Under the pieces are notes generated by a model that worked only from the letters and a program-made list of their open reading frames with translations, had not been told where the DNA came from and ran no database searches. The translations under genes and the position numbers were made by a program. A DNA stretch of 64,000 nt, taken from positions 74,840,119-74,904,118 of the forward strand of contig OZ025248.1 in NCBI GenBank assembly GCA_964019135.1, read 5' to 3'. The DNA is from Arenicola marina (Eukaryota; Annelida; Polychaeta; Arenicolidae). Shown piece after piece: positions 1 to 62,358 of the stretch. Numbering within the stretch: the stretch's first letter is position 1; each line of letters opens with the position of its first letter.

Positions 1-1889
1 GGCCTATCTTGCTGCAGTAGTATTCCATCATATATTCCTGAGGCCCACCTTGCTGCAGTAGTATTCCATCATATATTCCTGAGGCCTACCTTGCTGCAGT
101 AGTATTCCATCATATATTCCTGAGGCCTACCTTGCTGCAGTAGTATTCCATCATATATTCCTGAGGCCCACCTTGCTGCAGTAGTATTCCATCATATATT
201 TCTGAGGCCCACCTTGCTGCAGTAGTAATACCATCATATATTCCTGAGGCCTATCTTGCTGCAGTAGTAATACCATCATATATTCATGAGGCCCACCTTG
301 CTGCAGTAGTAATACCATCATATATTCCTGAGGCCTATCTTGCTGCAGTAGTAATACCATCATATATTCATGAGGCCTACCTTGCTGCAGTAGTATTCCA
401 TCATATATACCTGAGGCCTACCTTGCTGCAGTAGTATTCCATCATATATTCCTGAGGCCTACCTTGTGGCAGTAGCATTCCATCATATATTCCTGAGGCC
501 TACTGTGCTGCAGTAGTATGCCATCATATATTCCTGAGGCCTATCTAGCTGCAGTAGTAATACCATCATATATTCCTGAGGCCTACCTTGCTGCAGTAGT
601 ATTCCATCATATATTCCTGAGGCCTACCTTGCTGCAGTAGTAATCCATCATATATTCCTGAGGCCTACCTTGCTGCAGTAGCATTCCATCATATATTCCT
701 GAGCCCTATCTTGCTGCAGTAGTAATACCATCGTACATTCATGAGGCCCACCTTGCTGCAGTAGTATTCCATCATATATTCCTGAGGCCTACCTTGCTAC
801 ACAGATATTCCATCATATATTCCTGAGGCCTACCTTGCTACAAAGATATTCCGTCATATATTCCTGAGGCCTATCTTGCTGCAGTAGGATTCCATCATAT
901 ATTCCTGAGGCCTACCTTGCTGCAGTAGTATTCCATCATATATTCCTGAGGCCCACCTTGCTGCAGTAGTATTCCATCATATATTCCTGAGGCCTACCTT
1001 GCTGCAGTAGTATTCCATCATATATTCCTGAGGCCTACCTTGCTGCAGTAGTATTCCATCATATATTCCTGAGGCCTACCTTGCTGCAGTAGTAATACCA
1101 TCATATATTCCTGAGGCCCACCTTGCTGCAGTAGTATTCCATCATATATTCCTGAGGCCTACCTTGCTGCAGTAGCAATATTATCTTATATTCCTGAGGC
1201 CAACCTTGCTACAAAGATATTCCATCATATATTCCTGAGGCCCACCTTGCTGCAGTAGTATTCCATCATATATTCCTGAGGCCTACCTTGCTGCAGTAGT
1301 ATTCCATCATATATTCCTGAGGCCCACCTTGCTGCAGTAGTATTCCATCATATATTCCTGAGGCCTACCTTGCTGCAGTAGTAATACCATCATATATTCC
1401 TGAGGCCCACCTTGCTGCAGTAGTATTCCATCATATATTCCTGAGGCCTACCTTGCTGCAGTAGTATTCCATCATATATTCCTGAGGCCTACCTTGCTGC
1501 AGTAGTAATACCATCATATATTCCTGAGGCCCACCTTGCTGCAGTAGTATTCCATCATATATTCCTGAGGCCTACCTTGCTGCAGTAGCAATATTAGCTT
1601 ATATTCCTGAGGCCAACCTTGCTACAAAGATATTCCATCATATATTCCTGAGGCCCACCTTGCTGCAGTAGTATTCCATCATATATTCCTGAGGCCTACC
1701 TTGCTGCAGTAGTATTCCATCATATATTCCTGAGGCCTACCTTGCTGCAGTAGTATTCCATCATATATTCCTGAGGCCTACCTTGCTGCAGTAGTAATAC
1801 CATCATATATTCCTGAGGCCCACCTTGCTGCAGTAGTATTCCATCATATATTCCTGAGGCCTACCTTGCTGCAGTAGTATTCCATCATG
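1..1889 (-). repeat. 41-bp minisatellite copying the CSTF3 exon 13 end and 5' splice site (about 46 copies)
   Basis: The 41-bp unit is repeated about 46 times from the window edge up to and into exon 13; the spacing of TTGCTGCAGTAG is exactly 41. On the minus strand each unit reads as the last 24 bases of exon 13 (codons for MMEYYCSK), then GTAGGCCTCAGGAATAT. Most units therefore carry the junction AGCAAG|GTAGGC or AGCAAG|GTGGGC. A minority have GATAGGC and lose the GT. Variant units with GCTACAAAGATATT recur, which suggests block duplication. The array probably continues left of the window. It lies in the intron after exon 13. Confidence 0.95.
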
Positions 1890-2008
1890 GCGGCCGCGAT
1901 GTACACCTCGAAGGTGCAGCGAGCATCCTCGCGAGCCATGCGGAAGATGGTTCGTGCCGCCTTGATGCCCTCGGCGCGGCGGGCGAACTTCATGTACTGG
2001 ATGCAGGC
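1865..2008 (-). CDS. CSTF3: CSTF3 exon 13, flanked on both sides by arrays made from its own splice sites
   Basis: Forty-eight codons, [20 protein letters not shown] and onward to MMEYYCSK, phase 0 at both ends. The acceptor is TTACAG|GCC and the donor AGCAAG|GTAGGC. Both junctions are the innermost copy of a minisatellite: 33-bp units on the acceptor side, 41-bp units on the donor side. The coding sequence itself is intact and well conserved. Confidence 0.95.
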
Positions 2009-5000
2009 CTGTAACACGTAACGGGGACATCAGTAACTGGCCTGTAACACGTAACGGGGACATCAGTAACTGGCCTGTAACACGTAACGGGGACATCAGT
2101 AACTGGCCTGTAACACGTAACGGGGACATCAGTAACTGGCCTGTAACACGTAACGGGGACATCAGTAACTGGACTGTAACACGTAACGGGGACATCAGTA
2201 ACTGGCCTGTAACACGTAACGGGGACATCAGTAACTGGCCTGTAACACGTAACGGGGACATCAGTAACTGGCCTGTAACACGTAACGGGGACATCAGTAA
2301 CCCCTGGTTACATGTGTCGTAATGTAATCTATCGTTTATGCACATGAGGTAAGCATAAAACTATGGACATGCTATGGATGTCCAAAAGGTGTTTGGTCAT
2401 GTATTGGATAAATACCCTTCAACAGGTTAACGTTCCTATACACTTGGTGTGGCCTTACACAATCATACCAAGACATCAGAATTCTATGTTAATAAGGTGA
2501 AATATATACAATATCATCAAACGCCATTTTATTTAGTACTCACCAATGTGGGATCCACACTTTCTACTTGAATAAATCGCTTGTATATGAGATGGACTTT
2601 GTCGAACTTCATGCGACTCTGGGGATTACAAACAGACAACAGTCAGCAGGTGTCAGTAATATCAGAACATCTAAAGCCAGACCCTATTTCCAGTGAAGGA
2701 TAGCCAGAGATACATCAGGCAGCAGACGGATACATGTACTTCGTCTTCCTAGCCCCATAGTATTTAGTGACAAATGCTGGAACTAAATAACGATCTTCAT
2801 CGAGGATCTCTTCATAACCCGATGGACATTTCTGATTGATTTCTGGCGTGATTTGTCCGTTTTCGGGGGTACCAACCTCTTCAAAGTCCGCATACGCGAA
2901 GTAAATGAGCATGTTGAGCTTGAGTAGCGTGGTAATGGCCCTCTCGTACATGGCAGCAGCCTCGTCCGCAAACAGCTTGCCGGTATTCTGGTCCTATAAC
3001 CCAATTAATTAACATTAACACATCCTATCATTTACATATCACTGTGGAATATAGTGGGGGCATCATCGTGTTTGTAACAGCTGATGTTTAAACGTTTTCT
3101 TCTCCAGGCGATCATCGCTATATCGAGAATGGTAGTGACACAAAAATATGATTTTTTTTACCGTTTCTTGTCATGTATATAAGTATAGGAATAATATAAG
3201 ACATGCGTGTTGGAAAATATCATCAAATCGAATCAGATAATGTAATAAAAGGGAAGACCTGGCACAACCGATTGCCTATTTTCCGATGGGGAATAGATAA
3301 TGTTACATCAAACGTGGAACCTCCTCCAAAGTGAAGGCCTTTCTCTGGCACCCTGCCACTGGCACTCTGCAACTGGCACTCTGTCACTGGCACTCTGCCA
3401 CTGGCACTCTGTCACTGGCACCCTGCCACTGGCACTCTGCCACTGGCACTCTGTCACTGGCACTCTGCAACTGGCACTCTGTCACTGGCACTCTGCCACT
3501 GGCACTCTGTCACTGGCACCCTGCCACTGGCACTCTGCCACTGGCACTCTACCACTGGCACTCTGCCACTGGCACTCTGCCACTGGCACTCTGCCACTGG
3601 CACTCTGCCACTGGCACTCTGTCACTGGCACTCTGTCACTGGCACTCTGCAACTGGCACTCTGTCACTGGCACTCTGCCACTGGCACTCTGTCACTGGCA
3701 CCCTGCCACTGGCACTCTGTCACTGGCACTCTGCCACTGGCACTCTGTCACTGGCACTCTGTCACTGGCACTCTGTCACTGGCACTCTGTCACTGGCACT
3801 CTGCCACTGGCACTCTGTCACTGGCACTCTGTCACTGGCACTCTGTCACTGGCACTCTGCCACTGGTACTCTGCCACTGGCACTCTGTCACTGGCACTCT
3901 GCAACTGGCACTCTGTCACTGGCACTCTGCCACTGGCACCCTGCCACTGGCACTCTGCCACTGGCACTCTGCCACTGGCACTCTGCCACTGGCACTCTGC
4001 CACTGGCACTCTGCCACTGGCACTCTGCCACTGGCACTCTGTCACTGGCACTCTGTCACTGGCACTCTGCCACTGGCACTCTGTCACTGGCACTCTGCCA
4101 CTGGCACTCTGCCACTGGCACTCTGCCACTGGCACTCTGCCACTGGCACTCTGTCACTGGCACTCTGCCACTGGCACTCTGCCACTGGCACTCTGCCACT
4201 GGCAATCTGTCACTGGCACTCTGTCACTGGCACTCTGCCACTGGCACTCTGCCACTGGCACTCTGCCACTGGCACTGCAGACACCCTACACTTACGCCTT
4301 TCTCCGTGAGCAGTTTACTGGACTGCTCGAGGTAGGAGGCGGCCTCGATCCACACGTCAGGGTGATGGCCCAGACACAGCAAGCACTGCTCGTAGGCAAA
4401 CATCACTGCAAACCACGGTGCTCAAACATCATGCTTAGCAAAACAAACTGACATCAATTTTTGCATTAAATTCTTTAAATATTTTAAATCGGATTTGTCT
4501 TGGTTTAAAAAAGTTAAAATTGCAGAACTATGTAAAATTATTGACTTTTTGTTTCATTATTTTGATATTTGCAGTGCAAGCACAACACACAGACGCGTAA
4601 CTTACACAGACACGACAGACTGCTTTACCTTTTCAGCTTTTGAGACAAGATAAGGCAGTTCGTCCTATTTCTAGCAACTATATTTGCACAATGTGGACAT
4701 CATGATACATGTGCTAAGCTTTCCTCTTCCAGCTTTTCTACCACCTGACTGACCTCTCTTGGCGATTGTGGTCTGGTCCTCAGTACGGAGCGGGTTGTTC
4801 TTCTCCCACGCGATGTACTTCTTCCACAAATCCACCTGAAAGACGGCACATTTACTGTCAAGCTCCGCGTTTAGCGCTAGAAGCTAACCAAGGCCGTGAT
4901 ATACTAGCTTTTATCGCCAGAGATGCCGCCACACGCGATATGCACCGCATCTAAGGTTTTCCTAAGGTCTCTCCTCGATACACAGGAAAGTCATCCAGTG

Positions 5001-8000
5001 GCTAAAATAAGGCCACAAAATGGCGAGAGAACAGCGAAGAAGGAAGAGACACGAAATCATCCAATCCAATTCAGTAATACACTGATCAGCGGGAATAAGA
5101 ACCACCAAGTGACGCGTATCCTAGTGTATAGAATTACGTTTTACATGATAATGGGACACTGGTTCTCTGCAGATATATCAACCAACCTGTTTGACTTCGT
5201 CAGGGTTGTTTTGAGGTGGCACGGAGGGAGCGTTCCTGTTTAACCCTTTGGTGACGACTTCATACTCCTTCGCTACTCGTCTGGCATTCATATAGTCTCT
5301 GCTCTTGTCATCCTGCATCTTCTTGGCTATCAAAGGGTTAATCCCCTAAAAAGCGTGACAAAATACATGGGCACGATTAACATTACTGAACTCGGAAAAA
5401 AAATGGACTAAAATGAGCACATGTCGATATATAAACATAGGGGTAGAACCCCCGACTCAGTTGAAAGCGAGCTCAGCGGCAGATCAACAAGTCGTGGGTT
5501 CGAACCTTGGAACCTGTATCTCAGGCCGATAGTATCTAACCTGATGTCATTGTCCCGGGAGCTTGTTTTTTAACTCAATTTCGCATTGATGTGCCCAAAA
5601 GAGGCCCAAGACACGAACGTGTCATTGCCATTGGTAGATCATATACTGCAGGACATTCAGAGGTTTAATTGCTGTCAGTAACGACCTGTTCAAAGTTATA
5701 GTAGTCCTTCCACAGTATTTCGATGTTTATCATTGGATTGACGACGCCCCGCTGGTAGACCTTGCGCACGGCTGTGATGCGCTGGTTCTCGGCATAAGAA
5801 CCGACGGCTTCACTGCAGAATCAAACACATGTTGTCACTATTATGTCATATTGTTGAAATAAATATATTCTTGATCTTGCATTACATGCATGACCCTGAC
5901 ATGAACTAAATTCCTCCATTAATTAAATTTCGTTCCGTGTTCTAAGAAAGTTTATATTTATTGATGATGATAACAGATGGAAATGATTATAGAAAAGTAC
6001 TGATGATGGTTATTGACGATGATTATTGATGATGGTTATTGACGATGATTATTGATGATGGTTATTGATGATTATTGATGGTGGTTATTGATGATAGATA
6101 CTGATGATGGTTATTGATGATGGTTATTGATGAAAGATACTGATGATGGTTATTGATGATAGATATTGATGATGGTTATTGATGATAGATATTGATGATG
6201 GTTATTGATGATAGATATTGACGAAAGATACTGATGATGGTTATTGATGATGGTTATTGATGATGGTTATTGATGATAAATATTGATGATGGTTATTGAT
6301 AATATATGTTGATGATGGTTATTGATGATAGATATTGATGATGGTTATTGATGATAGATATTGATGATGGTTATTGATGAATGATACTGATGATGGTTGT
6401 TGATGATGGTTATTGATGATAGATATTGATGATGGTTATTGATGATAGATATTGATGATGGTTATTGATGATAGATATTGATGGTGGTTATTGATGATTG
6501 CTGCAGATGACACAACACAATGCTGTATTTGGCGCATACTCACACAGACTTGAGGAAGCTGATGTAATCGACCCACAGTTGGTATGACATGATGTCCATA
6601 CCAATCTTGTCCAAGGCAAAGTCGTAAGCTTGCGCCATTTTCTCTCTGATAAAGATATAGTAACATTACAGTATCCGCATATACTGGACTCGGGTCGAGG
6701 TTCAGTAATGACCTAGGTGCAACGTGCCGTGTAGAGGGTGATCCAATTGACAGCAATTCTGCACAAAGCACATTCGTGATGAAAATTTATTTAAATTAAA
6801 CAGTGGATACTGTATATATATATGGCATTGCGGCATACAGTTTGACTAGTGCTCACCTGTACGTTGGTAAACTGCCTTTCGTCTCTTTGATGTAATGTAA
6901 GTATGTCTTCCACAAGTCAATGTTAAGAACTTTCATGAGGCATCGTTGGAACAACTGAGAGAAGAGATATGACAAAGACGTCACAGATATGGATATATTT
7001 CTGATATTATTTTCACTCATCGTTTCAGTTATTTAGTAATTGTTACAATGTATCACGACGACCGACCGTCCGACCGATGACGACCGACCGTCCGACCGTT
7101 GACGACCGACCATCCGACCGATGACGACCGACCGTCCGACCGATGACGACTGACCGTCCGACCGATGACGACCGACCGTCCGACCGATGACGTCCGACCG
7201 ATGACGACCGACCGTCCGACCGATGACGCCCGACCAATGACGACCGACCGTCCGACCGATGACGACCGACCGTCCGACCGATGACGACCGACCGTCCGAC
7301 CGATGACGACCGACCTTCCGACCGATGACGACCGACCGTCCGACCGATGACGACCGACCGTCCGACCGATGACGACTGACCGACGGACCGATGACGACCG
7401 AACGCCGGGCCGATGACGACCGACCGTCGAATCCATGACGACCGACCGTCCGACCGATGACGACCGACCGTCCGACCGATGACGACCGACCGTCCGACCG
7501 ATGACGACTGACCGTCCGACCGATGACGACCGACCGTCCGACCGATGACGTCCGACCGATGACGACCGACCGTCCGACCGATGACGCCCGACCGATGACG
7601 ACCGACCGTCCGACCGATGACGACCGACCGTCCGACCGATGACGACCGACCGTCCGACCGATGACGACCGACCTTCCGACCGATGACGATCGAACGCCGG
7701 GCCGATGACGACCGACCGTCGAATCCATGACGACCGACCGTCCGACCGATGACGTCCGACCGATGACGACCGACCGTCCGACCGATGACGCCCGACCAAT
7801 GACGACCGACCGTCCGACCGATGACGACCGACCGTCCGACCGATGACGACCGACCGTCCGACCGATGACGACCGACCTTCCGACCGATGACGACCGACCG
7901 TCCGACCGATGACGACCGACCTTCCGACCGATGACGATCGAACGCCGGGCCGATGACGACCGACCGTCGAATCCATGACGACCGACCGTCCGACCGATGA

Positions 8001-11000
8001 CGACCGACCGTCCGACCGATGACGACCGACCGTCCGACCGATGACGACTGACCGTCCGACCGATGACGACTGACCGACGGACCGATGACGACCGAACGCC
8101 GGGCCGATGACGACCGACCGTCCGACCGATGACGACCGACAGTCCGACCGATGACGACCGACCGTCCGACCGATGACGACCGACCGTCCGACCGATGACG
8201 ACCGAAAGCCAGGCCGATGACGACCGACCGTCGAATCCATGACGACCGACCGTCGGACCGATGACGACCGACCGTCCGACCGATGACGACCGACCGTCCG
8301 ACCGATGGCGACCGACCGTCCGACCGATGACGACCGACCGTCCGACCGATGACGACTGACCGACGGACCGATGATGACCGAACGCCGGACCGATGACGAC
8401 CGACCGTCCGACCGATGACGACCGACAGTCCGACCGATGACGACCGACCGTCCGACCGATGACGACCGAAAGCCAGGCCGATGACGACCGACCGTCGAAT
8501 CCATGACGACCGACCGTCGGACCGATGACGACCGACCGTCCGACCGATGACGACCGACCGTCCGACCGATGGCGACCGACCGTCCGACCGACCGTCCGAC
8601 CGATGACGACTGACCGACGGACCGATGACGACCGACCGTCGGACCGATGACGACCGACCGTCGGACCGATGACGACCCACCGATGACGAGCGACCATCGA
8701 ACCGATGACGACCGACCGTCGGACCGATGACGACCGACCGTCGGACCGATGACGACCGACCGATGACGAGCGACTATCGAACCGATGACGACCGACCGTC
8801 CGACCGATGACGACCGACCGATGACGAGCGACCATCGAACCGATGACGAGCGACCATCGAACCGATGACGAGCGACCATCGAACCGATGACGACCGACCG
8901 TCGGACCGATGACGACCGACCGTCGGACCGATGACGACCGACCGATGACGAGCGACCATCGAACCGATGACGACCGACCGTCCGACCGATGACGACCGAC
9001 CGTCGGACCGATGGCGACCGACCGTCCGACCGATGACGACCGACCGTCCGACCGATGACGACTGACCATCGGACCGATGACGACCGACCGTCGGACCGAT
9101 GACGACCGACCGATGACGAGCGACCACCGAACCGATGACGACCGACCGTCCGACCGATGACGACTGACCGTCCGACCGATGACGACCGACCGACGGACCG
9201 ATGACGACCGATCATCGAATCCATGACCGACCGTCCGACCGATGACGACGGACCGTCCGACCGATGACGACGGACCGTCCGACCGATGACGACCGACCGA
9301 TGACGACCGACCGTCCGACCGATGACGACTGACCGACGGACCGATGACGATCGAACGCCGGGCCGATGACGACCGATCGTCGGGCCGATGACGACCGACC
9401 GTCCGACCGATGACCACTAACCGACGGACCGATGACGACCGAACGCCGGGCCGATGACGACCGACCGTCGGGCCGATGACGACTGACCGTCCGACCGATG
9501 ACCACTAACCGACGGACCGATGACGACCGAACGCCGGGCCGATGACGACCGACCGTCGGGCCGATGACGACTGACCGTCCGACTGATGACGACTGACGGA
9601 CGGACCGATGACGACCGAACGCCGGGGCCGATGACGACCGACCGTCGGGCCGATGACGACCGACCGTCCGACCGACCGATGACGACCGACCGATGACGAC
9701 CGACCGATGACGACCGACCGTCCCTCCGATAGACGACGACCGACCGTCCGACCGATGACGACTGACCGACGGACCGACCGTCGGGCCGATGACGACCGAC
9801 CTTCCGACCGATGACGACTGACCGTCGGGCCGATGACGACTGACCGTCCGACCGATGACGACTGACGGACGGACCGATGACGACCGAACGCCGGGGCCAA
9901 TGACGACCGACCGTCGGGCCGATGACGACCGACCGTCCGACCGACCGATGACGACCGACCGATGACGACCGACCGATGACGACCGACCGTCGGGCCGATG
10001 ACGACCTACCGTCGAATCCATGACGACCGACCGTCGGACCGATGACGACCGACCGTCCGACCGATGACGACCGACCGTCCGACCGATGGCGACCGACCGT
10101 CCGACCGATGACGACCGACCGTCCGACCGATGACGACTGACCGACGGACCGACCGTCGGGCCGATGACGACCGACCGTCGGACCGATGACGACCGACCGT
10201 CCGACCGATGACGACCGACCGTCGGACCGATGACGACCGACCATCGAACCGATGACGACCGACCGTCGAACCGATGACGACCGACCGTCGGGCCGATGAC
10301 GACCGATCGTCGGACCGATGACGACCGACCGTCGGACCGATGACGACCGACCATCGAACCGATGACGACCGACCGTCGAACCGATGACGACCGACCGTCG
10401 GGCAGACGACGACCGACCGTCGGGCCGATGACGACCGACCGCTGACGACAGACCGTCGGACCGATGACGACCGACTGACAACCACTAATCGGCCGACAAA
10501 AACCGACCGTCAATTTACGTTAAAGCCACTAAAAATGCATGACATGAGTATCAAATACATTTTGACAAGTCAATAACCTGAGACATATTGTTTGCAGAAC
10601 TGTTACAAGTGCCATAAGATGTCACACGAGGGCACACCGGTATGCAGAAGCGGGCCGCAAGCGGGCCATCCTCGATATAAACCTGACGGTCATCGCCGCG
10701 GAAGGCTCATGGCTGGCCGTCGGCGATGACCAAACTATTCAGCCTTCGACTCACCTTTTCAACCTTTTCGTAATTGCGCGACTTCATCTGAAACAGGACA
10801 AGCGATAGATATGTACAACAAAACGTAGCTACTGAAAACTACTGTCAGACAGCAACTGCCTATGCCCCAGGTTAATCCGTATGCCATATCTGCCAGAACA
10901 GAATTATTAAAGTTTATGATGTTACTCAACATGGCAGACGTCATTTCAATTAAAAAAAAGGGTGATTATAACGAAGAGCGTCAGAATATAACATTATATG

Positions 11001-31338: not shown

Positions 31339-31632
31339 ATGGTCAGACGCTACAAGAAAAAAAACGTATTACGGCAATGGTCACAGGAGGACCTTGAAAA
31401 GGCCTTGCTTGAGTTTAGGGGCGGAAAGATGTCGGTGCGGCAAGCGTCGGAAATTTATGGCATTCCGCGAACCACCCTGAGTGATTACGTTCGGGGTACA
31501 TCAACGTCTGGCTGCTCACTTGGAAGAATCGCAGCCCTAGTGAGTGAGATGGAGGAAGGCCTTGTTGCTAAGGCACAGGAGGTATCCGAGAAGGGCCTTG
31601 GTGTCAGCAAAGATATTAGTACACCAAGATAG
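31339..31632 (+). pseudogene. Pogo/Tigger-like transposase, N-terminal Psq-type HTH part
   Basis: The reading begins at ATG right after a TTCTAG| acceptor-like sequence and runs MVRRYKKKNVLRQWSQEDLE, KALLEFRGGKMSVRQASEIY, GIPRTTLSDYVRG. This matches the Psq/CENP-B-type helix-turn-helix at the N-terminus of pogo, Tigger and Jerky transposases (W...DL..AL, G..SVR.AS..YG.P..TL). The frame is cut at VSKD by a 955-bp insertion (31608-32562), and a stop follows within it. The catalytic part lies at 32813-33270 in broken frames. A host gene built from the HTH exon cannot be excluded. Confidence 0.8.
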
Positions 31633-42900: not shown

Positions 42901-44743
42901 TATCCTAGTTAACGCACTATTTTAGCCACATGTGGTTAATATCGATATTTTTCGCTATGTGGCACTAACCTTACGCAGGCGATACCTTCCGGTCTTGCGG
43001 CGTCTGCCCAATAACTTCATCTTCGAGCCGTGGAAGGCGCCACTGTCGGTGCAAGAGGCCGCCAAGTGTGTGGTGGGCAAGGACTACCCGATGCCAATGG
43101 TCAACCACCAGGAAGTTAGCTATGTCAACATTGAACGTATGAAGCTCGTCTACCGCCAACTGGTCCTGCAGGGAGGTTAGCTCACCGATAGGCAGAAACA
43201 CCGCGATTATCTCCTTAAAGTTGCATATCGAGCTCTTTTCCGCCAGAAGGAAGCCCAGGCAACATATATCTATATCACAATGTGTAGAGAACTCGATTGT
43301 TTCATTCTATTAATTCAGAAACCTTGTAAACATAGCCGTTTCGGCTGTGATATGGTTGGTTGGTTATTTAGGACGCTTTAACCACTTTTGGTCATATCGC
43401 GTCAATGGGAGAAGGTAGGGAGAGTGGAGCCATGTCACCGGGGGTAACCCCCTACTTTTCACGAAGAAAGACATGGAAGACATTTATCCTGCGACCACAC
43501 AGACATGGCAACAGCGGTGCTCGAACCACCAATCCACGTGCCGTTAGGCTCTCAGGTGACCAGAGCACTCAATGCGAGCGCTCTAGCCCTCTGAGCTATC
43601 GCGCCGGCCCCGATGTGATGCGGCAAACGTGTCTAACCCGGGTCACCGCAGAACTCTGTCGCGGCACTGCTACTTATAAAAAAGCATCGCTAAGTTCACA
43701 AACTGATGACGGTTTACCACTAAGTTGAAAACCTGTGGTAAATTGATATCACGGGCAAGGCCAAGGGACTCTATTTTCCGGTCTGGCGTGTGTGGAATAT
43801 AGACAATTTTTTTTGGGACTATTCAAGGACTGATTCTTATTTGTATTTGGACATCTTTAGTATTGGCGGGAAAGAGCTCGATATGCAACTTTAATTTTAT
43901 GTGTAGTAATTTAGTAATATGCGTATGTACGACCCTCTGAATTTCAGCGTCTGTTCTACCGTAACTTAAAAAAATATACATTCTCACACGTAATAAGCAT
44001 TCCGAGATAATGTTCCGTAAGAAACCCCAGTCTGTAGTCCTCACAGACTACTTACCTGTCTGTGAAGGTTTTTCAGCAGAGATAATTTGGCGATTGTGTA
44101 AATTGCTGAGTCATGTTGCAGGGCCGCTGACCAAGTACATCCGGAAGCGTCAGCAGCACGTGGTGGAGCCCCACATAAACGAGGGAGCCCTGCTGTCCAG
44201 TATGTACACACGAAAAAACATGAATTGTTTGTGTTTTAGTCCATGTTTTTTCAGTTTAACCCGATAACCCTAATATTTCTGGTATTTTAAATTAGTACAT
44301 TGAGGAGCCCTTTATACTTTGCATATACTTACTTAGCAATTTAGGAGGTTTTGTTTTCAATCTATTTAAGGTACAAAATTCGTATTTGACGCATCTGTTG
44401 TATTCAATTGTATGTACTCATAGGCCAGTGTACAATATAGTACAAAAGAGACACTTGAATATAAAAAACATTCGGTGTTAATCTTAAGCCTGTGCTGATT
44501 GTTTGTTTGTTTCTGATTACAGTGAAGGTGCGACAGTTGATGTTGATGCCGCGGAGGGGGGAGGCGGTGCAGGCCAAGCGCGGCCACAGCTCAAGCTCCA
44601 GCTCAGAGCAGGACCACAAGCAGCAGCGGGTCTCCAACGCAATGCTACCGGCTCCCGACACCCTGCCCCACGGCCAGGCCGCCCACAGCCTGCCCCATGG
44701 CCAGACCGCCCACAGCCTGCCCCATGGCAAGCCCGCCCACTGA
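36674..44743 (+). CDS. CRY: Animal cryptochrome, vertebrate-like (type II) CRY, 12 coding exons, 617 aa
   Basis: Joining 36674-36900, 37965-38073, 38525-38667, 38981-39165, 40107-40195, 40328-40468, 40760-40930, 41473-41613, 42357-42508, 42979-43175, 44122-44199 and 44523-44743 gives 617 codons plus TGA. Residues about 25-190 form the photolyase alpha/beta domain ([35 protein letters not shown]). Residues about 225-515 form the FAD-binding domain ([80 protein letters not shown]). NAGTWMW holds the flavin-proximal Trp region. HDDKYGIP and [20 protein letters not shown] resemble repressor-type animal CRYs rather than Drosophila-type CRY. The 99-residue C-tail is basic then Ser-rich and ends in minisatellite-derived text. 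In such CRYs the role is repression of CLOCK:BMAL1 in the nucleus. A 6-4 photolyase is the main alternative. Confidence 0.95.
37264..37787. repeat. CRY intron 1 repeat: 15-16-bp units plus a 97-bp duplicated block
   Basis: Units AATCCTGAATCAGACAG and GATCCTGAATCAGACAG fill 37264-37330 and 37425-37695. A 97-bp block (TGCCTGTATGGGACAGTTAC to CACCTTGGAATC) occurs at 37331-37427 and again 358 bp later at 37689-37785, with four differences. It contains the hairpin ACTCCAC-AATCTTA-GTGGAGT. Confidence 0.9.
37965..38073 (+). CDS. CRY: CRY exon 2
   Basis: 109 nt encoding (R)[18 protein letters not shown] and [18 protein letters not shown], with a GTTGCAG| acceptor and TTTAAG|GTGATT donor. Confidence 0.95.
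38525..38667 (+). CDS. CRY: CRY exon 3
   Basis: 143 nt encoding [20 protein letters not shown] and on to SHTLYSLK. The acceptor is TATGTAG| and the donor CAAAAA|GTAAGT. The phase is shared with exon 4. Confidence 0.95.
38981..39165 (+). CDS. CRY: CRY exon 4
   Basis: 185 nt encoding [20 protein letters not shown] and on to [12 protein letters not shown]. The acceptor is TATTTCAG| and the donor TCTTG|GTGAGT. Confidence 0.95.
39622..39873 (+). pseudogene. Non-LTR retrotransposon ORF2 C-terminal fragment in CRY intron 4
   Basis: The open frame reads [40 protein letters not shown] and onward to FKFRKAN stop. The C..C...E.E.H.LLECP.Y..LR pattern is the post-RT Cys/His motif of CR1/jockey-like elements. 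A stop lies just upstream in frame, so only the tail survives. Confidence 0.8.
39806..39947 (+). repeat. 71-bp tandem duplication at the LINE 3' end
   Basis: 39806-39876 and 39877-39947 differ by one base (TTTTG/TTTAG). The first copy contains the last 21 codons and stop of the LINE frame. Confidence 0.95.
40107..40195 (+). CDS. CRY: CRY exon 5
   Basis: 89 nt encoding (G)[19 protein letters not shown] and [10 protein letters not shown]. The acceptor is CTTTCAG| and the donor GAAAG|GTAATA. Confidence 0.95.
40328..40468 (+). CDS. CRY: CRY exon 6, with a GC 5' splice site
   Basis: Forty-seven codons, [20 protein letters not shown] and on to WKLTLLYRK. The acceptor CCCTAAAG| is weak. Conservation ends exactly at CGAAAG|GCAAGG, which fits the strong-consensus class of GC-AG introns. 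No GT donor at or near this point preserves the frame into exon 7. Confidence 0.9.
40760..40930 (+). CDS. CRY: CRY exon 7
   Basis: Fifty-seven codons starting [20 protein letters not shown] and ending AVAKWAE, with a TTTTCAG| acceptor and GCCGAG|GTAGAA donor. The first residues are a basic, Cys-containing stretch where vertebrate CRYs have a variable loop. Confidence 0.94.
41473..41613 (+). CDS. CRY: CRY exon 8
   Basis: Forty-seven codons, [20 protein letters not shown] and on to [11 protein letters not shown], the most conserved FAD-pocket exon. The acceptor is TTTTAAG| and the donor ATGAAG|GTCCGA, weak at +3 to +5. Confidence 0.95.
42049..42352. repeat. 31-bp minisatellite abutting the CRY exon 9 acceptor (about 10 copies)
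   Basis: Unit TGACGTGGTGTTGCCATGAC then GTGACGACGTC, with CTGTGCC variants that drop two bases. It fills the end of intron 8 to within four bases of the exon. Each unit has up to three TGACG half-sites of the CRE type. Confidence 0.95.
42357..42508 (+). CDS. CRY: CRY exon 9
   Basis: 152 nt encoding [20 protein letters not shown] and on to DPNGDYI. The acceptor GACGTGCAG| directly follows a 31-bp minisatellite with no pyrimidine tract. The donor is CATCAG|GTTGGT. Confidence 0.95.
42847..42873 (+). mobile_element. SINE tail fragment
   Basis: GACCAAAAGTGGTTAAAGCG then TCCTGA is the reverse complement of the tail of the SINE at 43372. Nothing upstream aligns. Confidence 0.55.
42979..43175 (+). 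CDS. CRY: CRY exon 10
   Basis: 197 nt encoding [20 protein letters not shown] and on to [17 protein letters not shown], the last FAD-domain helices. The acceptor is TACGCAG| and the donor GGGAG|GTTAGC. Confidence 0.95.
43219..43890. mobile_element. 672-bp TTAA-flanked element in CRY intron 10, with a SINE inside
   Basis: The 27-bp terminal inverted repeats have one mismatch (AGTTGCATATCGAGCTCTTT...CGCCA). TTAA occurs at both ends (43215-43218, 43891-43894). A TTAA target is typical of piggyBac-type transposons. There is no coding capacity. The SINE occupies 43372-43611. Confidence 0.85.
43372..43611 (-). mobile_element. tRNA-derived SINE, near full length
   Basis: On the minus strand it begins GGGGCCGGCGCGATAGCTCA then GAGGGCTAGAGCGCTCGCAT, with an A-box-like ATAGCTCAGAGGG. 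A B-box-like GGTTCGAGCACC follows 60 bases later. The body contains TGTCTGTGTGGTCGCAGGAT and GGGGGTTACCCCCGGTGACA and ends ...ACCAAAAGTGGTTAAAGCGTCC. Relatives lie at 26905-27050, 33861-33925 and 42847-42873. Confidence 0.88.
44122..44199 (+). CDS. CRY: CRY exon 11, start of C-terminal tail
   Basis: 78 nt encoding [20 protein letters not shown] and GALLS. The acceptor is TTGCAG| and the donor GTCCA|GTATGT. YIRKRQQ is a small basic cluster. Alignment to other CRYs ends here, so exon structure rests on phase and splice consensus. Confidence 0.85.
44523..44743 (+). CDS. CRY: CRY exon 12, tail ending in minisatellite-encoded repeats
   Basis: ATTACAG| acceptor; with exon 11 it reads [40 protein letters not shown], then the 9-residue repeats [26 protein letters not shown] and stop. 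Each repeat is one 27-bp minisatellite unit, and the TGA comes from the first 46-bp unit. The frame is retained from exon 11. Confidence 0.85.
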
Positions 44744-46010
44744 GTATCTTGGCCTCCACAGCCTGCCCCAGGGCCAGGCCGCCCGCTGAGTATCTTGGCC
44801 TCCACAGCCTGCCCCATGGCCAGGCCGCCCACAGCCTGCCCCAGGGCCAGGCCGCCCACTGAGTATCTTGGCCCCCAGAGCCTGCCCCATGGCCAGGCCG
44901 CCCACTGAGTATCTTGACCCCCACAGCCTGCCCCAGGGCCAGGCTGGGCACTGAGTATCTTGGCCCCCACAGTCTGCCCCATGGCCAGGCCGCCCACAGC
45001 CTGCCCCAGGGCCAGGCCGCCCACAGCCTGCCCCAGGGCAAGTCCGCCCACTGAGTATCTTAGCCCCCAGAGCCTGCCCCATGGCCAGGCCGCCCACAGC
45101 CTGCCCCAGGGCCAGGCCGCCCACTGAGTATCTTGGCCCCCACAGCCTGGCCCAGGGCAAGTCCGCCCACTGAGTCTCTTGGCCCCCACAGCCTGCCCCA
45201 TGGCCAGGCCGCCCACTGAGTATCTAGGCCCCCACAGCCTGCCCCATGGCCAGGCCGCCCACTGAGTATCTAGGCCCCCACAGCCTGCGCCAGGGCCAGC
45301 TCGCCCACTGAGTATCTTGGCCCCCACAGCCTGCTCCAAGGCTAGGCCGCCCACTGAGTATCTTGGCCTCCACAGCCTGCCCCAAGACCATGCCGCCCAC
45401 TGAGAATATGGCCGCCCCCAGCCTGCCCCATGGCCAGGCCGCCCGCTGAGTATCTTGGCCTCCACAGCCTGTCCCAGGGCCAGGCCGCCCACTGAGTATC
45501 TTGGCCTCCACAGCCTGCCCCATGGCCAGGCCGCCCACAGCCTGCCCCATGGCCAGGCCGCCCACTGAGTATCTTGGCCTCCACAGCCTGCCCCATGGCC
45601 AGGCCGCCGAATGAGTATCTTGGCCCCCACAGCCTGGCCCAGGGCAAGTCCGCCCACTGAGTATATTGGCCCCCACAGCCTGCCCCATGGCCAGGCCGCC
45701 CACTGAGTATCTTGGCCCCCACAGCCTGCCCCATGGCCAGGCCGCCCACTGAGTATCTTGGCCTGCACAGCCTGCCCCATGGCCAGGCCGCCCACAGCCT
45801 GCCCCAGGGCCAGGCCGCCCACTGAGTATCTTGGCCCCCACAGCCTGCCCCATGGCCAGGCCGCCCACTGAGTATCTTGGCCCCCACAGCCTGGCCCATG
45901 GCCAGGCCGCCCACTGAGTATCTTGGCCCCCACAGCCTGCCCCATGGCCAGGCCGCCCACTGAGTATCTTGGCCTGCACAGCCTGCCCTATGGCCTGGCC
46001 ACGCACTGAG
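44690..46010. repeat. 46/27-bp GC-rich minisatellite spanning the CRY stop codon and 3' flank
   Basis: The long unit is CCCACTGAGTATCTTGGCCC then CCACAGCCTGCCCCATGGCC and AGGCCG. The short unit lacks a 19-base CTGAGTATCTTGGCCC-containing segment. About 30 units in total. The first short units are translated in CRY exon 12 and the remainder is 3' UTR or flank. The minus strand is open for 518 codons only because of the repeat. Confidence 0.95.
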
Positions 46011-46280
46011 CATCACAGGGCCAGTATCTTGAGTATCTTGGCCTCGGCATTATTGAGAGACTCGTGTCTGTCACTGATGGAATGCCCTAAGAAACGAATG
46101 TCTTGCATGTTGTGATGTGGAAGTGAGTGTGTGGGGGCTAATTGCTGTGTGGTTCATTGCAACAGTGCGTTGGGCAATCCAGTATTCATGTGTGTGCATA
46201 TAGGGGAATCTTACCTCACTTTTATTCCATCATACGATTTACCTTTGAAGTTGACAATGATTGACGAAATCTAAAATGTT

Positions 46281-46738: not shown

Positions 46739-47317
46739 AAAATGAGATATTGTTCTTAGAGCAGTATTGATTCGGTTGTTTATGAATGTTAAAAGCAAAC
46801 TGACCCGATGTGCTCTTCGCGTTCATTTTGATAAGTATCTAATATTGTCTCAAAATGTTAGCGTTTCACGTGCTAAAATATTACGTGATCACTGCATTTA
46901 AGTTTCCGTCCAGCTATATGATGTATTTTATGACTTACAAGTTAGCTGTGTGGGTAAACAGATCCATCCAAGCACACTTTGTTATATAATTTGGTATAGT
47001 TGGTTATGAGTAAGCGGATGGAGTTTGATCTTGGGTTAGCATGACTGCGTGCCTTCCCCGATCCATAGGCATGGCAATGCCTGCAGTATGTACCCCCACC
47101 CCCGCTTTCGTGTTCCCAATGCGGCCCTTGTTTGTTGGTGTACCAGCTAACGAGTAACTATATTCTGCGTCGCTCTTGTCTGCGTAAAAAAGTACAACAC
47201 AGCCATGAAATGTCCCATGAGTCCCATTTAAAAAACTCTTACAGTGTTGAATGATAAATTAAGCATTAAATGGTATTCTTTCCAGTATCATCTTGATACG
47301 ACGTAGCGCTTTAAGAA

Positions 47318-50300
47318 CTTCCAACTTATCGTGGTTGCTATTGTCGTCGAGTGATCCCGTGCTATTGTACCGAGTGATATACTTCCAACTTGTCGTGGTT
47401 GGTATTGTCGTCGAGTGATCCTGTGCTATTGTACCCAGTGATATACTTCCAACTTGTCGTGGTTGGTATTGTCGTCGAGTGATCCTGTGCTATTGTACCC
47501 AGTGATATACTTCCAACTTGTCGTGGTTGGTATTGTCGTCGAGTGATCCCGTGCTATTGTACCGAGTGATATACTTCCAACTTGTCGTGGTTGGTATTGT
47601 CGTCGAGTGATCCCGTGCTATTGTACCCAGTGATATACTTCCAACTTGTCGTGGTTGGTATTGTCGTCGAGTGATCCTGTGCTATTGTACCCAGTGATAT
47701 ACTTCCAACTTGTCGTGGTTGGTATTGTCGTCGAGTGATCCTGTGCTATTGTACCGAGTGATATACTTCCAACTTATCGTGGTTGGTATTGTCGTCGAGT
47801 GGTCCTGTGCTATTGTACCCAGTGATATACTTCCAACTTGTCGTGGTTGGTATTGTCGTCGAGTGATCCTGTGCTATTGTACCGAGTGATATACTTCCAA
47901 CTTGTCGTGGTTGGTATTGTCGTCGAGTGGTCCTGTGCTATTGTACCCAGTGATATACTTCCAACTTGTCGTGGTTGGTATTGTCGTCGAGTGATCCCGT
48001 GCTATTGTACCGAGTGATATACTTCCAACTTGTCGTGGTTGGTATTGTCGTCGAGTGATCCTGTGCTATTGTACCCAGTGATATACTTCCAACTTGTCGT
48101 GGTTGGTATTGTCGTCGAGTGATCCTGTGCTATTGTACCCAGTGATATACTTCCAACTTGTCGTGGTTGGTATTGTCGTCGAGTGATCCCGTGCTATTGT
48201 ACCCAGTGATGTACTTCCAACTTGTCGTGGTTGGTATTGTCGTCGAGTGATCCCGTGCTATTGTACCCAGTGATGTACTTCCAACTTGTCGTGGTTGGTA
48301 TTGTCGTCGAGTGATCCCGTGCTATTGTACCCAGTGATGTACTTCCAACTTGTCGTGGTTGGTATTGTCGTCGAGTGATCCTGTGCTATTGTACCGAGTG
48401 ATATACTTCCAACTTGTCGTGGTTGGTATTGTCGTCGAGTGATCCCGTGCTATTGTACCCAGTGATGTACTTCCAACTTGTCGTGGTTGGTATTGTCGTC
48501 GAGTGATCCTGTGCTATTGTACCGAGTGATATACTTCCAACTTGTCGTGGTTGGTATTGTCGTCGAGTGATCCTGTGCTATTGTACCGAGTGATATACTT
48601 CCAACTTGTCGTGGTTGGTATTGTCGTCGAGTGATCCCGTGCTATTGTACCCAGTGATATACTTCCAACTTATCGTGGTTGCTATTGTCGTCGAGTGATC
48701 CTGTGCTATTGTACCCAGTGATATACTTCCAACTTGTCGTGGTTGGTATTGTCGTCGAGTGATCCTGTGCTATTGTACCCAGTGATATACTTCCAACTTG
48801 TCGTGGTTGGTATTGTCGTCGAGTGATCCTGTGCTATTGTACCCAGTGATATACTTCCAACTTGTCGTGGTTGGTATTGTCGTCGAGTGATCCTGTGCTA
48901 TTGTACCCAGTGATATACTTCCAACTTGTCGTGGTTGGTATTGTCGTCGAGTGATCCTGTGCTATTGTACCCAGTGATATACTTCCAACTTGTCGTGGTT
49001 GGTATTGTCGTCGAGTGATCCTGTGCTATTGTACCGAGTGATATACTTCCAACTTGTCGTGGTTGGTATTGTCGTCGAGTGATCCTGTGCTATTGTACCC
49101 AGTGATATACTTCCAACTTGTCGTGGTTGGTATTGTCGTCGAGTGATCCTGTGCTATTGTACCGAGTGATATACTTCCAACTTGTCGTGGTTGGTATTGT
49201 CGTCGAGTGATCCCGTGCTATTGTACCCAGTGATATACTTCCAACTTGTCGTGGTTGGTATTGTCGTCGAGTGATCCTGTGCTATTGTACCCAGTGATAT
49301 ACTTCCAACTTATCGTGGTTGCTATTGTCGTCGAGTGATCCTGTGCTATTGTACCCAGTGATATACTTCCAACTTGTCGTGGTTGGTATTGTCGTCGAGT
49401 GATCCTGTGCTATTGTACCCAGTGATATACTTCCAACTTGTCGTGGTTGGTATTGTCGTCGAGTGATCCTGTGCTATTGTACCCAGTGATATACTTCCAA
49501 CTTATCGTGGTTGCTATTGTCGTCGAGTGATCCTGTGCTATTGTACCCAGTGATATACTTCCAACTTGTCGTGGTTGGTATTGTCGTCGAGTGATCCTGT
49601 GCTATTGTACCCAGTGATATACTTCCAACTTGTCGTGGTTGGTATTGTCGTCGAGTGATCCTGTGCTATTGTACCGAGTGATATACTTCCAACTTGTAGT
49701 GGTTGGTATTGTCGTCGAGTGATCCTGTGCTATTGTACCCAGTGATATACTTCCAACTTGTCGTGGTTGGTATTGTCGTCGAGTGATCCTGTGCTATTGT
49801 ACCCAGTGATATACTTCCAACTTATCGTGGTTGCTATTGTCGTCGAGTGATCCTGTGCTATTGTACCCAGTGATATACTTCCAACTTGTCGTGGTTGGTA
49901 TTGTCGTCGAGTGATCCTGTGCTATTGTACCCAGTGATATACTTCCAACTTATCGTGGTTGGTATTGTCGTCGAGTGATCCTGTGCTATTGTACCCAGTG
50001 ATATACTTCCAACTTGTCGTGGTTGGTATTGTCGTCGAGTGATCCTGTGCTATTGTACCCAGTGATATACTTCCAACTTGTCGTGGTTGCTATTGTCGTC
50101 GAGTGATCCCGTGCTATTGTACCGAGTGATATACTTCCAACTTGTCGTGGTTGGTATTGTCGTCGAGTGATCCTGTGCTATTGTACCCAGTGATATACTT
50201 CCAACTTGTCGTGGTTGCTATTGTCGTCGAGTGATCCCGTGCTATTGTACCGAGTGATATACTTCCAACTTGTCGTGGTTGGTATTGTCGTCGAGTGATC

Positions 50301-51545
50301 CCGTGCTATTGTACCGAGTGATATACTTCCAACTTGTCGTGGTTGGTATTGTCGTCGAGTGATCCCGTGCTATTGTACCCAGTGATATACTTCCAACTTG
50401 TCGTGGTTGGTATTGTCGTCGAGTGATCCTGTGCTATTGTACCCAGTGATATACTTCCAACTTATCGTGGTTGCTATTGTCGTCGAGTGATCCTGTGCTA
50501 TTGTACCCAGTGATATACTTCCAACTTGTCGTGGTTGGTATTGTCGTCGAGTGATCCTGTGCTATTGTACCCAGTGATATACTTCCAACTTGTCGTGGTT
50601 GGTATTGTCGTCGAGTGATCCTGTGCTATTGTACCCAGTGATATACTTCCAACTTATCGTGGTTGCTATTGTCGTCGAGTGATCCTGTGCTATTGTACCC
50701 AGTGATATACTTCCAACTTGTCGTGGTTGGTATTGTCGTCGAGTGATCCTGTGCTATTGTACCCAGTGATATACTTCCAACTTGTCGTGGTTGGTATTGT
50801 CGTCGAGTGATCCTGTGCTATTGTACCGAGTGATATACTTCCAACTTGTAGTGGTTGGTATTGTCGTCGAGTGATCCTGTGCTATTGTACCCAGTGATAT
50901 ACTTCCAACTTGTCGTGGTTGGTATTGTCGTCGAGTGATCCTGTGCTATTGTACCCAGTGATATACTTCCAACTTATCGTGGTTGCTATTGTCGTCGAGT
51001 GATCCTGTGCTATTGTACCCAGTGATATACTTCCAACTTGTCGTGGTTGGTATTGTCGTCGAGTGATCCTGTGCTATTGTACCCAGTGATATACTTCCAA
51101 CTTGTCGTGGTTGCTATTGTCGTCGAGTGATCCTGTGCTATTGTACCCAGTGATATACTTCCAACTTGTCGTGGTTGGTATTGTCGTCGAGTGATCCTGT
51201 GCTATTGTACCCAGTGATATACTTCCAACTTGTCGTGGTTGGTATTGTCGTCGAGTGATCCTGTGCTATTGTACCGAGTGATATACTTCCAACTTGTAGT
51301 GGTTGGTATTGTCGTCGAGTGATCCTGTGCTATTGTACCCAGTGATATACTTCCAACTTGTCGTGGTTGGTATTGTCGTCGAGTGATCCCGTGCTATTGT
51401 ACCCAGTGATATACTTCCAACTTGTAGTGGTTGGTATTGTCGTCGAGTGATCCCGTGCTATTGTACCCAGTGATGTACTTCCAACTTGTCGTGGTTGCTA
51501 TTGTCGTCGAGTGATCCTGTGCTATTGTACCGAGTGATATACTTG
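47318..51545. repeat. 64-bp satellite array (about 66 copies) with higher-order structure
   Basis: Unit ATACTTCCAACTTGTCGTGG then TTGGTATTGTCGTCGAGTGA, TCCTGTGCTATTGTACCCAG, TGAT. Period is exactly 64 with essentially no indels. Variants (TATCG/GGTTGCTATT, CCCGTG, CCGAG, TGTAGTGG) recur in register when shifted by 1152 bp (18 units): 49311/50463, 49503/50655, 49695/50847, 49823/50975. Confidence 0.97.
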
Positions 51546-62158: not shown

Positions 62159-62358
62159 NNNNNNNNNNNNNNNNNNNNNNNNNNNNNNNNNNNNNNNNNN
62201 NNNNNNNNNNNNNNNNNNNNNNNNNNNNNNNNNNNNNNNNNNNNNNNNNNNNNNNNNNNNNNNNNNNNNNNNNNNNNNNNNNNNNNNNNNNNNNNNNNNN
62301 NNNNNNNNNNNNNNNNNNNNNNNNNNNNNNNNNNNNNNNNNNNNNNNNNNNNNNNNNN
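62159..62358. other. Assembly gap, 200 N
   Basis: A run of exactly 200 N, likely a fixed-size placeholder. The FRS2-like exon runs into it from the right. Confidence 0.99.

Follow-up and report, generated by a model that had tools for sequence, protein, structure and literature searches.

Minisatellites across splice junctions in the annelid Arenicola marina, with one CSTF3 exon spanned on both sides

How does an exon come to lie between two minisatellites built from its own splice sites, and which of the many copies would the spliceosome choose? Both questions are raised by a 64,000-nucleotide stretch of the Arenicola marina genome (contig OZ025248.1 of assembly GCA_964019135.1, positions 74,840,119 to 74,904,118 of the forward strand), hereafter referred to as the window; positions to its left carry negative numbers. 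A preliminary description of the window reported an intact exon with about 46 copies of its last 24 bases plus 5' splice site on the donor side and nine copies of an acceptor module on the other, and took this two-sidedness to be the special feature of the locus. Here we describe the anatomy of the two arrays, their counterparts at other exons and the frequency of such arrays in a survey of splice junctions.

A gene model and a protein match identify the minus-strand gene as CSTF3, which encodes the 77-kDa subunit of cleavage stimulation factor. The model has 20 exons (A to T) with in-frame joins to the stop codon, encoding 704 aa, and exons A to L, amounting to 415 aa, lie inside the window. 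The exon at issue, exon L, is probably coding exon 13, as the 11 coding exons identified upstream of it do not include the first. A 365-aa join of CSTF3 exon translations matches two CstF-77 chains (mouse and human), 2ooe at E = 2e-182 and 6uro at E = 3.8e-181, and exon L (translation ACIQYMKF...MEYYCSK) is gap-free within this match and intact, as first reported. Among the matches listed, the best CSTF3 identities are to Capitella teleta (83%) and Lamellibrachia (80%), with Branchiostoma at 75%. A tree of 19 CSTF3 proteins groups the window protein with Capitella and Lamellibrachia (support 99/97), the third annelid, Owenia, falling outside that group at a poorly resolved fork. These results point to an annelid host and speak against amphioxus. 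Ten of the 19 CSTF3 introns are array-free (nine of 211-545 nt and one of 1602 nt), eight consist of array over 47-96% of their length, and array makes up 5% of one 13-kb intron. Coordinates of the main features are given in Table 1.

Table 1. Coordinates of CSTF3 exons, splice sites and tandem arrays at the locus.
Feature	Position	Strand	Description	Basis
CSTF3 exon L	1865..2008	-	144 nt, phase 0/0	In-frame 20-exon model and CstF-77 chain match
CSTF3 exon K	2544..2618	-	Upstream neighbour of exon L	Exon model
CSTF3 exon C	10755-10787	-	33-nt microexon; flanking introns of 13.1 and 3.8 kb	
Donor-side array of exon L	1..1888 in window, extending left to -2116	-	41/42-nt unit	TRF and per-copy segmentation
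Proximal 5' splice site of exon L	1853..1864	-	First 12 intron nt, AAG/GTAGGCCTCAGG	Exon model
Acceptor-side array of exon L	2006..2301	-	9 copies of 33-nt module	TRF, segmentation, genome matches
Innermost acceptor module	2009..2038	-	Adjoins exon L	Sequence and exon model
Intronic array, non-spanning	3345..4276	-	14 nt × 66.6, starts 19 nt past exon I donor	TRF
Intronic arrays, non-spanning	7057..10441	-	12/22 nt, 90% of intron C-D	TRF

The donor-side unit consists of 24 nt of exon L followed by 17 nt of intron that include the 5' splice site. Within the window the array has a period of 41, 45.8 copies, a 91% match and a score of 3121 (TRF), in line with the approximate count first given; once neighbouring DNA is included the whole array is larger, at 97.3 copies, and fills 96% of the 4149-nt intron L-M. 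Per-copy segmentation yielded 97 complete copies comprising 46 distinct units, with GT at the donor dinucleotide in 63 and AT in 34, and this G-to-A variant makes +1 the most variable position of the array. Copies with AT lie in clusters (27 runs, compared with 45.1 on average after shuffling), and the 24 copies closest to the exon all carry GT, with no sign of a purging of decoys close to exon L. Divergence did not rise with distance from the exon, either here (Spearman 0.01) or in the exon N array described below (-0.04). Near the exon end of the array, two blocks of about 10 units each, at 971-1270 and 1384-1683, form a higher-order duplication with 99% identity. Read-through past the first donor gives V-G-L-R-N-I-stop and the use of an upstream acceptor gives A-S-Y-stop, both as the preliminary description had read them.

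On the other side of the exon, TRF reports a period of 33, 9.0 copies, a 99% match and a score of 585. Each module comprises a TACTGAT branch-like motif, a TTACAG acceptor and only 3 nt of exon, and AG is kept in all eight upstream acceptors. A 29-nt core of the module has nine exact matches in the 867-Mb assembly (762 contigs), all at the exon L locus, and the same core read backwards has none; in terms of exact genome matches, therefore, an introner-like dispersal of the core was not found. The repeat units thus reach both junctions of exon L with the innermost copy intact, as had been claimed, and the innermost acceptor module and the exon-proximal 5' splice site are the copies that would be expected to be used. 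The further suggestion that the arrays feed recursive splicing finds no footing in the units themselves, neither of which, on reading, has a pyrimidine tract and AG directly followed by a donor: the donor unit reads AAG/GTAGG without a pyrimidine tract, and the acceptor unit reads CAG/GCC.

Arrays of the same kind occur at other exons. In CSTF3 itself, the donor of exon N lies inside a 56-nt × 48.9 array that takes in 9 nt of exon sequence and has GTAAGT in 48 of 48 complete copies. Five junctions are spanned in the chaperonin gene CCT7 (the donors of exons 5, 6 and 10 and the acceptors of exons 8 and 9), whose exons were set from homologous proteins and whose 10 introns all have GT-AG. Donor-spanning arrays are also present in two further chaperonin genes, CCT C8 (29 nt × 40.1) and CCT C11 (55 nt × 10.9), and twice in the C7 myosin gene (37 nt × 6.6 and 32 nt × 11.7). 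In the eight donor arrays other than that of exon L, 150 of 152 near-copies have GT, a count limited to copies with at most two mismatches in 16 and hence biased towards intact GT. Two further candidates were rejected. CCT7 exon 10 was not accepted as another clear case of an exon with arrays on both sides, since the repeat at its acceptor has 1.9 copies and none passes the match test; the array at CCT C8 exon 230-326, which begins at the junction, has just one downstream copy that passes and was not counted as spanning.

Several other repeats deserve mention in their own right. At the CCT7 exon 9 acceptor (contig C17) the unit fuses the end of the intron with an exon segment that starts 36 nt further in and is thus non-contiguous in the gene, which hints at template switching. 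To the left of the window, a 65-nt × 12.0 array (-30118 to -29340) has a minus-strand unit with CAAGGTAA at its end, which resembles a further exon end plus donor. A 64-nt × 66.1 array of 97% identity (47317-51544) lies outside the CSTF3 exons found, and a 124-aa open reading frame (44488-44859) runs into a 46-nt array with nested periods of 73 to 257 (44677-46014). A plus-strand open reading frame at 31339-31629 seems to resemble the psq-type helix-turn-helix of pogo/Tigger-like transposases.

The survey of junctions covered 13 genes, namely CSTF3, nine chaperonin genes (PF00118) and parts of three myosin genes, and comprised 84 donors (19 from CSTF3, 10 from CCT7, 38 from other chaperonin and 17 from myosin genes) and 83 acceptors (20, 10, 36 and 17, respectively). 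We used 46 of the 49 PF00118 matches, omitting one on C5 and two on C10, and dropped one donor and three acceptors that had no boundary call. Outside CCT7, chaperonin boundaries were set from profile edges and then adjusted by means of a small matrix, and myosin boundaries from profile edges alone, in three stretches that cover 17 of the 77 listed matches; some of the last-exon 'donors' are doubtful. Of these, 9 of the 84 donors and 3 of the 83 acceptors had a junction-spanning array, distributed over five genes, with none in the other eight; leaving exon L out, the rates are 8 of 83 and 2 of 82. These counts are roughly what random birth of arrays would give, and the view of two-sidedness as a special design is not borne out by them. 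Exon L is the sole clear two-sided exon in the survey; the rates for single sides would predict 0.2 to 0.3 such exons.

Random birth was modelled as P(span) = 2(P-1)/(2(P-1)+R), where P is the unit and R the residual intron, under the assumptions of a random start in the array-free part of an intron and of tolerance for junction-spanning starts; it was applied to introns bounded on both sides, with residual intron lengths compiled by hand. Without exon L, 8 spanning arrays were observed against 4.73 expected among 24 arrays (P = 0.062), and with exon L, 10 against 5.26 among 26 (P = 0.015), which places the refuting condition set in the preliminary description, that junction arrays are no commoner than expected, near the border, on either side of it according to whether exon L is counted. 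The excess is driven by CCT7 (5 spanning against 2.50 expected of 7 arrays, P = 0.038), CSTF3 without exon L showing none (1 against 1.03 of 9). Random array birth in short introns accounts for much of the pattern, and no hotspot is needed for that much; the excess obtained with exon L and at CCT7 nevertheless counts against purely random birth, and a mild junction hotspot is possible. These two figures, together with the surplus of spanned donors over acceptors, are also what speaks for splice junctions as true birthplaces of minisatellites, at which donor or acceptor sequence, or DNA or RNA structure, would promote tandem duplication. We regard this reading as unlikely, given the outcome without exon L, the lack of any excess in the rest of CSTF3, the eight genes without a spanning array, the arrays that start at +19 to +86 within introns, and a donor-to-acceptor imbalance that is not significant (9:3, P = 0.15; without exon L 8:2, P = 0.11).

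The presence of dozens of intact decoys, and of distal choices that in exon L run straight into stop codons, might instead suggest that the arrays are functional, tuning CSTF3 splicing or feeding an NMD-coupled autoregulation of this 3'-end-processing gene. Similar structures in unrelated chaperonin and myosin genes, the ease with which read-through stops arise by chance, and the inactivation of one third of the exon L decoys at +1 make such a role highly improbable. The 99% repeated higher-order block in the donor array could likewise be seen as a sign of misassembly, in which case the arrays, or their sizes, would be artefacts of assembled repeats. An artefact of this sort fits poorly with the diversity of distinct units among the complete copies, with the occurrence of similar arrays in several unlinked genes, and with the lack of N runs in or near the arrays (the sole N run of the window lies at 62159-62358, and the loci to its left have 0), and we give it very little weight.

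The explanation that we consider likely is that arrays are born at random in introns, that duplications across junctions are nearly neutral, and that the exon-proximal site is used. Under this explanation, an annelid genome that often forms minisatellites within its short-intron genes would now and then undergo a small tandem duplication across a splice junction. The exon would retain a full end and splice site of its own, all additional copies coming to lie in the intron; were the spliceosome to keep to the exon-proximal site, the mRNA would be unchanged. With that site prevailing, duplications of this kind would be nearly neutral and could expand by slippage or unequal exchange, inflating the intron, with exon L having by happenstance acquired one array on each side. 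Tolerance of this type requires that splicing take place at the exon-proximal site; a duplication within an exon, by comparison, alters the protein. The anatomy of the arrays, their recurrence at other exons, the intact dinucleotides in most decoys and the near-random frequency are direct observations, while we infer from them that the exon-proximal pair is used (by exon definition), that the duplications are nearly neutral and that the arrays have no function.

Tolerance is supported by the intact exon L and the intact 704-aa reading frame of CSTF3, and would be supported further, if that animal has the arrays, by the CCT7 protein P0122 of a near relative, which has no repeat-derived residues across the corresponding junctions; its source, a 1826-base contig, is taken as a transcript. 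The near-universal GT among the near-copies of the eight other donor arrays shows that decoys there have not been purged, the exon L array being the exception. The variability at +1 in the exon L array (34 of 97 copies AT) could reflect selection on decoys. In in vitro work, splicing of duplicated donors reportedly favours those close to the 3' splice site; with such a preference in A. marina, a normal mRNA would be noteworthy. A reading that joins several of these elements, in which splice junctions are a source of minisatellites in this annelid lineage and introns grow largely by copies of their own splice sites, tolerated through exon definition (innermost acceptor with innermost donor) and more readily for duplicated donors than for acceptors, seems to us rather doubtful.

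If splicing is normal, this genome amounts to many natural competition experiments, each setting one real donor against up to dozens of near-identical copies, with decoy donors at fixed spacing and, at exon L, near-identical competitors on both sides. The choice of the spliceosome among equal sites would then become testable with RNA reads. Because its competitors lie on both sides, exon L could separate three rules that a one-sided array cannot: exon definition predicts the innermost site on both sides, a first-transcribed-wins rule the outermost acceptor with the innermost donor, and an intron-proximal donor preference the distal donor. The arrays also represent a simple route from short to long introns, and gene predictors may mistake their copies for exons.

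Tandem duplication and splice signals have been linked before. Intron gain by tandem duplication of an AG/GT sequence has been put forward as a model (PMC3087553) and described for a potato RdRp gene (PMC4974935); there too, as far as these accounts are drawn on here, splice signals are copied in tandem, but the new intron arises inside an exon, whereas the A. marina arrays enlarge introns that already exist and leave the reading frame as it was. Human internal tandem repeats that alter gene structure likewise act on exon/intron structure, and in the portion of that study considered here concern paralogues in segmental duplications (PMC2812944). Closer in phylogeny, minisatellites enlarge intron 1 of earthworm metallothionein genes, again in an annelid, but the arrays are described as lying inside the first intron, and the part of the account used here does not mention a splice junction in the unit (PMC12783039). 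Among the titles and abstracts listed from an open-licence library, we recognised no boundary-spanning annelid case and no two-sided exon.

The nearest parallel is that of the amphioxus mirage minisatellites, described in Adh3 and in the globins BflGb6 and BflGb9 (PMC3087553), with further examples in troponin C and lancelet PGBD5 (PMC3902484). The preliminary description had already pointed to them; the likeness in kind holds, but mirages are not confined to the donor-side arrays that it named, since acceptor-side cases are published in the globins, donor-side and acceptor-side arrays occurring there on different genes according to the sections cited here (PMC3087553). In both animals a tandem unit spans the exon/intron boundary and many copies keep AG/GT. 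Exon L has boundary-spanning units (24 exonic nt on the donor side, 3 on the acceptor side) of minisatellite size (41/42 and 33 nt), an intact exon-proximal copy that continues in frame within a conserved protein (20-exon model and CstF-77 match), and AG/GT in many copies (63 of 97 donors with GT, eight of eight upstream acceptors with AG). For amphioxus, the same sections report RT-PCR evidence of regular splicing despite the mirages, with the exon-proximal copy used, as well as tests of length instability (PMC3087553); for A. marina, such use is predicted. Copy number reaches 97 here, against the 3 and 6 units given for two BflGb6 haplotypes; about one in nine surveyed donors is spanned, and both sides of one exon are affected. 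The host, moreover, is an annelid, so that the parallel crosses phyla and boundary minisatellites are extended to a second one. The boundary-spanning structure is therefore of a known kind, and the A. marina arrays differ from the earlier ones in phylum, in copy number, in how often they occur and in flanking one exon on both sides.
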